Origin: Ramlibacter sp.
GTDB taxonomy: Bacteria; Pseudomonadota; Gammaproteobacteria; Burkholderiales; Burkholderiaceae_C
Assembly: GCA_021156245.1 (NCBI GenBank)
Contig: JAJNBO010000146.1
Coordinates: 1 to 9,076 of the forward strand
Length of the DNA stretch: 9,076 nucleotides
Direction: 5' to 3'
A program made the position numbers and the translations under genes. Positions 7,222 through 8,938 of the stretch are shown here, one piece after another; positions within the stretch are counted from its first letter, which is position 1; every line of letters begins with the position of its first letter. Under the pieces are notes generated by a model. The model saw only the letters and a list, made by a program, of their open reading frames with translations, made no database searches and was not told where the DNA came from.

Positions 7222-7265
7222 CAAATAGAAAGCCCGGCCAGGCGCCTGAAGCAGCCTGCCGGGCT
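7222..7265 (-). terminator. Intrinsic terminator ending the predicted ncRNA
   Basis: On the - strand AGCCCGGC ... GCCGGGCT pairs over about 8 bp and extends by a further AGG/CCT-type helix with one bulged base (7231-7265). TTTCTATTT follows. The T-rich side is only on the - strand, which sets the direction. Confidence 0.6.
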
Positions 7266-7406
7266 GACGGCGCGACCACTCGCTGCCGTCTGGGTTCGCG
7301 ATGGGGACAAGGCGTCCGCATCGCGCCGGAGGCAAAGATTGCCTCCAAGAGGGGCCGGGGCTACCACGGGATGTGGCCCTACCGGCTGACGCCCAATCAC
7401 TTGGGC
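7222..7406 (-). ncRNA. Predicted structured RNA of about 185 nt, family not recognised
   Basis: Read on the - strand from 7406, five hairpins follow one another with little spacer. H1 (7391-7406) is GCCCAA-GUGA-UUGGGC. H2 (7354-7386) is GCCGG/CCGGC, GGC/GCC and CAC/GUG helices with two 3-base bulges and an AUCCC loop. H3 (7328-7346) is GGAGGCAA-UCU-UUGCCUCC. H4 (7297-7325) is CGCGAUG/CAUCGCG, one C-C mismatch, then GGAC-GCCUU-GUCC. H5 (7266-7290) is GACGGC/GCCGUC, one bulged A, then GCGA-GUGG-UCGC. The terminator hairpin ends it. A sigma-70-like promoter sits so that the start falls on the first base of H1. No protein frame here looks real. It shows none of the landmarks I know for tRNA, tmRNA, RNase P RNA, SRP RNA or 6S RNA. 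It could be a free small RNA or a terminated leader of the DUF349 gene. Confidence 0.55.
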
Positions 7407-7412
7407 CTGCTC

Positions 7413-7441
7413 AAGGTAGTCCACCCCTGCGCGCTTTTCAA
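7413..7441 (-). promoter_or_regulatory. Sigma-70-like promoter for the predicted ncRNA
   Basis: On the - strand TTGAAA (7441-7436) and TACCTT (7418-7413) are separated by 17 bases. The region just upstream is A/T-rich (AAAAATCGATT), like an UP element, in an otherwise GC-rich area. A start seven bases after the -10 falls at about 7406, the first base of hairpin H1. Confidence 0.5.
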
Positions 7442-7714
7442 ATCGATTTTTCAATCGCGGTGGGCGACACCATTGCCCGTTGTTCCACGGTCTCGGGTCA
7501 TTCCTGACGACCCTGCTCGCTGAAAAGGTGCCCCGACAAGCGGTTTCCGGGCGTCGTAGCAGCAGAAACTGCTCCTGAAATGAGAGCGCTGGCCCCCTGT
7601 CAGCCATTGTCTTACAGGCTCCGGCGGGAATTTCCCACGAACTCCGCGGCTGGCTCAGCCCTAAATTAGGCAATCGATATGGCGGCAGATGCATATAGAA
7701 CGCCGAAAACATCC
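7442..7714. other. Non-coding stretch, lower G+C than surroundings
   Basis: I see no credible protein or known RNA gene here. The base composition is visibly less GC-rich than the genes, as expected of intergenic DNA. It holds two short odd-centred inverted repeats, GGGAA-T-TTCCC (7626-7636) and CCTAA-A-TTAGG (7660-7670), upstream of the + strand promoter, and a weak TATAGA box at 7694-7699. Confidence 0.5.
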
Positions 7715-7744: not shown

Positions 7745-7750
7745 CCGCCC

Positions 7751-7934
7751 GTCCCGACGATCGTGCCGGGGCGACGACCAGATCAACCCGCTGCCGAACC
7801 CGGCTAAGTCCGGTTCGAAGCGCCTCCGGAATCCGGAGAGCTCGAGCCCGATGGCGTACCGATCCAAACGAGGAGCCGGAGCGTTGCTGCCCACAGGCGC
7901 ACCTCCCCGACCCCCCGCGTAGAAAGGAAGTGCT
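7751..7934 (+). promoter_or_regulatory. Structured 5' leader of the transglycosylase gene
   Basis: This leader folds locally: a GC helix around 7751-7777, GAAC(C)CGG-CTAAGT-CCGGTTC at 7796-7816, and CTCCG-GAATC-CGGAG at 7824-7838. CCGGCT (7800-7805) could pair instead with AGCCGG (7874-7879), competing with the second hairpin. The ribosome-binding site AAAGGA (7923-7928) precedes the ATG at 7935. I could not match it to a riboswitch class I know; SAH and c-di-GMP motifs were considered and do not fit. Confidence 0.4.
7851..7922 (+). CDS. Possible 23-codon upstream ORF in the transglycosylase leader
   Basis: An ATG at 7851 opens 23 codons ending in TAG at 7920-7922, one base before the downstream ribosome-binding site and 12 bases before the next ATG. 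The peptide starts MAYRSKRGAG and ends APPRPPA. GGAGAG (7835-7840), ten bases before the ATG, could serve as a weak Shine-Dalgarno and lies partly in the 3' arm of a hairpin. The proline-rich end could slow ribosomes. Nothing but position and the box supports translation; it may be chance. Confidence 0.25.
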   Translation: MAYRSKRGAGALLPTGAPPRPPA

Positions 7935-8759: not shown

Positions 8760-8825
8760 GCTAAACTAGGCAGGCACGCGACTGGCGATAGGCGTCCCGC
8801 CCGGGGCGCTGACGTGGATCCATCC

Positions 8826-8840
8826 GGGGGCCCTGCCCCC
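8826..8840 (+). other. GC hairpin between the transglycosylase gene and glyA
   Basis: GGGGGC-CCT-GCCCCC pairs perfectly over 6 bp with a 3-base loop. No T run follows on either strand, so it is at best a weak or Rho-assisted terminator, or a leader element of glyA. Confidence 0.4.
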
Positions 8841-8858
8841 GCACCAACCACTGGGGAG

Positions 8859-8884
8859 CGTGCCACGCGCGTGCCACGCGCGTG
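8859..8884 (+). repeat. Tandem 11-bp repeat of palindromes upstream of glyA
   Basis: CGTGCCACGCG occurs twice in direct succession (8859-8869, 8870-8880), with a third partial CGTG. The junctions create two copies of the perfect palindrome CACGCGCGTG (8864-8873 and 8875-8884), offset by 11 bp, about one helical turn. This is the layout of a cooperative operator, about 55-75 bases before the glyA start. Confidence 0.6.
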
Positions 8885-8938
8885 ACCCGCCGTTCGCCTG
8901 GGCAGCCCTCGTCATCGACAGGGAACCAAAGGACTGCC

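Follow-up and report, generated by a model that had tools for sequence, protein, structure and literature searches.

The window considered here, that is, the whole 9,076-nt stretch of Ramlibacter DNA, carries on its minus strand a predicted RNA gene of about 184 nt (7406-7223), which lies between a divergent gene for an SLT-domain transglycosylase (PF01464) and, downstream on its own strand, a gene for a DUF349 protein (PF03993). Its promoter (7413..7441) is composed of a -35 box TTGAAA (7441-7436), a 17-nt spacer and a -10 box TACCTT (7418-7413), the latter being weak with three of six matches to TATAAT. Further upstream (7447..7475), the consensus over 70 related loci marks two boxes, CAAT (7475-7470) and ATTGAAAAA (7455-7447). 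The predicted 5' end leads directly into hairpin 1 (7391..7406; 6 bp in the window by RNAfold), which is followed by hairpin 2 (7354..7386; from single-sequence RNAfold predictions), whose length and inner sequence vary by lineage. Next come three hairpins delineated by both RNAfold and covariation: hairpin 3 (7328..7346), which column conservation marks as the most conserved element; hairpin 4 (7297..7325), with a GGAC-loop-CUCC top in the family consensus and a covarying lower stem; and hairpin 5 (7266..7290), of the form GACGGC...GCCGUC. The gene closes with an intrinsic terminator (7222..7265), likewise recovered by both approaches, with its stem at 7265-7231 and a U-rich tail extending to about 7222. 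A consensus scan of the window for promoters and terminators flagged neither the promoter nor the terminator of the RNA. Between the RNA and the start of the DUF349 gene, there is a second terminator-like hairpin (GCCCCCGCAACCGGGGGC-TTTCC; 7154-7130, minus strand); a -10-like box, GAGAAT, stands before it and is found again in two relatives.

The preliminary description of this DNA had claimed a promoter, five hairpins and a terminator on the minus strand over about 185 nt. The coordinates of these elements were verified on the sequence, and RNAfold forms all five hairpins and the terminator stem, with a predicted energy of -106.8 kcal/mol as against -81.5 +/- 4.3 for shuffled sequences. None of 200 shuffles folds as well as the minus-strand RNA (z -5.9), which, along with the covariation presented below, sustains the earlier judgment that such a chain of hairpins is very unlikely to arise by chance. 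The plus strand of the locus is equally foldable (z -5.98); hence, the folding energy is silent on the strand. We assign the RNA to the minus strand because the promoter, the upstream boxes and the U tail all point that way and because G-U cells outnumber A-C cells (124 vs 75) where the columns of the relatives' alignment are paired. The GNRA-type loop, which belongs to hairpin 1, is kept only in part: reading the loop letters by eye in 19 sequences, we found a GNRA tetramer in seven, including the window, and none in the other 12.

A search at the DNA level recovered matches in 21 of 200 genomes of the family, including the window's own. Of these, two lacking the promoter or hairpins were left out by eye as spurious, leaving 19 sequences (the window and 18 relatives). 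The kept relatives have most of the hairpins in common, along with the terminator and the promoter boxes. From these 19 sequences, a covariance model was built for the 3' core (R1). Within the window's GTDB family, it detected the RNA in 151 of 399 genomes, representing 58 of 141 genera; a broader model from 70 sequences (R2) extended this to 157 of the 399 genomes and 62 of the 141 genera. Carriers nearly always have a single copy (R1), with two matches in just two genomes. In order-wide samples, every match (five in 250 genomes with R1; six in 300 with R2) fell inside the same GTDB family. A pattern scan of one genome per species for 84,980 species, which overlaps in part with the family-genome set, yielded 72 stretches, of which 52 were confirmed by the covariance model at 72.6 bits or more; the remaining 20 (from planctomycetes, Chloroflexi, two Janthinobacterium, a Nitrosospira and others) were taken as chance matches. 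The confirmed carriers belong to Ramlibacter, Polaromonas, Curvibacter, Rhodoferax, Hylemonella, Caenimonas and Xylophilus, along with metagenome-assembled genomes (MAGs) labelled at higher ranks. The NCBI taxonomy places six of these seven named genera in the Comamonadaceae; the name Xylophilus is ambiguous there, and we take the genus to belong to the same family. One Polaromonas MAG, E14_maxbin.029, has two confirmed copies on different contigs, reflecting either a duplication or a mixed bin. A search of a plasmid collection for the RNA returned no match.

The predicted structure is conserved through compensatory changes. The consensus of the 19 sequences predicts 39 pairs, 16 of which have changed on both sides; within hairpin 1, the pairs 6-20, 7-19 and 8-18 have double-sided changes that keep pairing in three, four and one of the 19 sequences, respectively. 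For the part from hairpin 3 to the terminator, a 36-pair structure was written by hand from this consensus and counted on 70 cores aligned with MAFFT. There, 88.5% of the cells are paired, as against 80.3 +/- 0.4 in shuffles and at most 48.3% for slid structures; 26 of the 36 pairs have changed on both sides; the 234 cells changed on both sides compare with 70.9 +/- 11.3 in shuffles and at most 81 for slid structures; and the covariation score is 0.271 vs 0.138 +/- 0.006. None of 500 shuffles reaches any of the five measures. A caveat is that these counts favor well-kept cases, given that 19 of the 70 sequences supplied the structure itself and that a model of the same core was used to find the remaining 51.

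Individual elements contribute differently to this signal. In hairpin 3, 97.9% of the cells are paired and five of eight pairs have changed on both sides in the 70 sequences; its inner stem-loop, GCAAU(C/A)nnUUGC, is nearly invariant and its outer pairs covary. We also considered this hairpin as a DNA palindrome: 25 of its cells are G-U pairs, and since such cells are common there an RNA hairpin is favored over a palindrome. In hairpin 4, all 11 pairs have changed on both sides with 76.5% of the cells paired, and the GGAC...CUCC top is kept. Hairpin 5 is a composite of three outer pairs (two changed on both sides; 88.4% paired), three further pairs with one-sided variation only (92.3% paired) and three top pairs, each with changes on both sides (74.1% paired). 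The terminator stem has 98.0% of its cells paired and five of eight pairs changed on both sides in the 70 sequences, and 57 of the 70 loci have six or more T within 10 nt close to the end, an approximate count as the ends of 51 loci were set at a fixed distance. Hairpin 2 is different: the 19-sequence consensus fold leaves it unpaired and it shows no covariation support; hence, it rests on single-sequence folds, and these predict different shapes among the relatives. Thus, the compensatory changes that the preliminary description had proposed to look for in relatives are seen in hairpins 1, 3, 4 and 5 and the terminator and are lacking in hairpin 2. A GUAGnAGCCAGUCC-like stretch in hairpin 2, common to one group of relatives and paired differently between predicted folds, could be a seed or binding site. 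Nowhere in the 70 cores do three or more successive unpaired columns attain 80% identity, a limit of our choosing for a conserved open seed.

The upstream consensus of the 70 loci reads CAATcg, about 11 columns, gccATTGAAAaa and then TTTGca-17-cTAnnnT, where a capital denotes agreement in 70% or more of the rows that have a letter at that column, a level attained by the letters of CAAT and ATTGAAA. With its boxes conserved upstream of these 70 loci, the promoter first proposed from the window alone gains the support of its relatives. The CAAT and ATTGAAAA (ATTG) boxes could together form an operator, a regulator site or an UP-like site. Turning to coding potential, the 70 cores range from 114 to 144 nt in length and are distributed as 25, 28 and 17 over residues 0, 1 and 2 modulo 3; therefore, no single frame can run through all of them, and the conserved protein frame that had been raised as a contrary reading is not found through the core of all relatives. 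Short frames are open in 132 of 420 cases, by chance or otherwise.

Covariance models from Rfam 15, run at E<=10 against the window and the 18 relatives, gave no hit at the gathering threshold within the RNA, in agreement with the initial view of it as an unrecognised family. The sole overlap, seen in the window, is with P15: it extends over only the final ~13 nt of the RNA, at the 3' end, and scores 16.9 bits where the cut-off is 70. 6S RNA (RF00013) was considered and set aside: it has no match at the RNA locus, and a 6S-like locus lies elsewhere in six of eight relatives; the incomplete genome of the window itself yielded none. These 6S-like RNAs score 34-44 bits, below the Rfam cut-off of 46.4, and would therefore be missed by threshold-based annotation. 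In the titles and abstract openings that our literature searches brought up, we recognised no description of the Comamonadaceae RNA, and other print could hold one; on the sRNAs of these betaproteobacteria in general, the same searches yielded little.

The genomic neighborhood is stable on one side: in 67 of the 70 loci, the transglycosylase gene lies next to the RNA in divergent orientation. In three genomes, the RNA and the match to the leader of this gene are on different contigs, indicating that the RNA can exist apart from its transglycosylase neighbor. The 5' leader of this gene (7746-7934, plus strand; core 7779-7882) is itself a second, strongly conserved element. In the alignment of 34 leaders (of 51, the rest being unusual in length or poorly aligned), CGCTGCCG and GGC are invariant and are followed by GATGGCG-TACCAATCCAAACGAGG and then by a start region that is also conserved. 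Of 200 family genomes searched with a covariance model, 61 carry this leader, all but one of them a single time; the leader has no match in Rfam, and the window's copy shows weak single-sequence folds (z -1.2 and -1.6). It is possibly an unannotated regulatory leader. Farther along, a candidate ZMP/ZTP riboswitch (8768-8910, plus strand) scores 30.2 bits, below its cut-off of 39, and lies just upstream of an ORF that we take, from its first residues, to be glyA; the same riboswitch family occurs above the cut-off after the transglycosylase gene in five relatives.

Taken together, the conserved structure with covariation, the terminator of its own and the promoter-like boxes are what would be expected of a stand-alone structured sRNA, and we regard the existence of the RNA gene itself as nearly certain. 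It constitutes a new family within a kind of RNA already known, the structured stand-alone sRNAs. As to its function, we tentatively favor an sRNA acting in trans that is bound by a ProQ/FinO-domain protein, an explanation that, taken as a whole, we consider almost an even prospect. Briefly, the RNA would be transcribed from the boxed promoter, seemingly under regulation, and would end at the terminator. Since the conserved core lacks an open seed, recognition might proceed via stem-loops, namely GCAAUnnnUUGC of hairpin 3, the top of hairpin 4 and the terminator. The partner would be the ProQ/FinO-domain protein of the carrier genomes, which might stabilise the RNA and aid its action on other transcripts. 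This reading as a ProQ-type client stems from the rigid character of the RNA, its conserved stem-loops, the lack of an open seed in the core and the terminator. In the published accounts, meningococcal ProQ is described as binding highly structured regions (PMC7272453), and E. coli ProQ and FinO as binding intrinsic terminators (PMC12001967). A ProQ/FinO-domain protein is present in all five near-complete relatives and in five of six carriers overall; we give this weak weight because the protein was not found in the window's own genome, which is 69% complete, and was counted in carriers only.

The next explanation, a stand-alone Hfq-dependent antisense sRNA with its seed perhaps in hairpin 2 or in opening strands of the stems, is in our estimate possible and rather less probable. 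Hfq is present in all six carrier genomes, and the RNA could therefore be an Hfq client too; most loci, by the approximate count above, have a U-rich end; the GUAGnAGCCAGUCC-like stretch is shared by one group of relatives; and in hairpins 3 and 4 the 3' strands, being C-rich, could match ribosome-binding sites. However, the core offers no conserved unpaired run of even three columns, and the 3' strands within the stems are paired in 76.5-97.9% of the cells. Pairing with the leader of the neighboring transglycosylase gene was no better for cognate than for non-cognate partners (z -0.99; 34 loci), in a blunt test that scored duplexes over their whole length and left competing folds aside.

We consider it quite unlikely that the RNA is a scaffold in the manner of 6S and CsrB, sequestering one dedicated protein. 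The nearly invariant GCAAUnnnUUGC stem-loop, the GGAC...CUCC top and the presence of one copy in nearly every carrier across much of the family would all suit such a role; against it, we noticed no CsrB-like repeated motif, six of the eight relatives have a 6S-like locus of their own elsewhere, and CsrA was not found in any of six genomes (five of them at least 99% complete), in a search that was positive in three of 14 control genomes. Likewise unlikely is the allied proposal of a core RNA, present once per genome across the lineage, that regulates by sequestering proteins or by serving as a scaffold and is recognised by a partner protein via the invariant GCAAUnnnUUGC stem-loop; if true, the RNA would fill, in bacteria where CsrA was not found, a role comparable to that of 6S or CsrB.

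That the RNA is the 5' leader, or attenuator, of the gene downstream, which in the window encodes the DUF349 protein, is very improbable. The RNA does precede that gene on the same strand with a terminator at its end, and a strict pattern for a separate downstream promoter is present in only 10 of the 70 loci (an approximate count, with the end of 51 loci placed at a fixed distance), which gives no general support to separate promoters for the downstream genes. However, the downstream gene is inconstant, DUF349 being found in only 21 of the 70 loci (flanks of ~1.5-2 kb), which argues against the RNA being a DUF349 leader; further, several relatives have, by eye, a TTGAC...ATG start after the terminator. 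Finally, we give hardly any credence to the hairpins being accidental or to the locus being a repeat element or coding: GC-rich sequence that folds well on both strands and the open short frames might suggest such readings, but the covariation over 70 sequences, the single copy in nearly every carrier and core lengths not confined to one frame contradict them.

The RNA offers a concrete conserved target for studying structure-based RNA regulation in these betaproteobacteria. It is kept in about two-fifths of the sampled family genomes (157 of 399) with strong compensatory changes and has no Rfam family; it is probably, as judged from these sequence comparisons, a regulator missed by Rfam-based annotation.

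Among known systems, 6S RNA shares with the Comamonadaceae RNA its stand-alone character and a length of about 185 nt; it differs in that 6S RNA is one long bulged rod, whereas the latter is a chain of hairpins. The CsrB/RsmY-type sponges of CsrA too carry several successive hairpins and a terminator. We nevertheless reject this identity, against which the preliminary description had argued from the absence of GGA loops: in the predicted folds GGA is mostly paired, being free in only 12 of 241 instances, and the six genomes searched lack a detectable CsrA. The Bordetella repeat BRE, set alongside by description only, is likewise betaproteobacterial and mostly intergenic, and is reported in Comamonadaceae as well; however, it occurs up to 29 times per genome (PMC3110155), in contrast to the nearly always single-copy RNA described here. 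Lastly, the meningococcus, another betaproteobacterium, has an intergenic sRNA of 188 nt, NMnc0006, which is reported to lose stability without ProQ (PMC7272453). The likeness to the predicted Comamonadaceae RNA is one of general traits: both are intergenic, highly structured, of similar length and from betaproteobacteria with a ProQ/FinO-domain protein.
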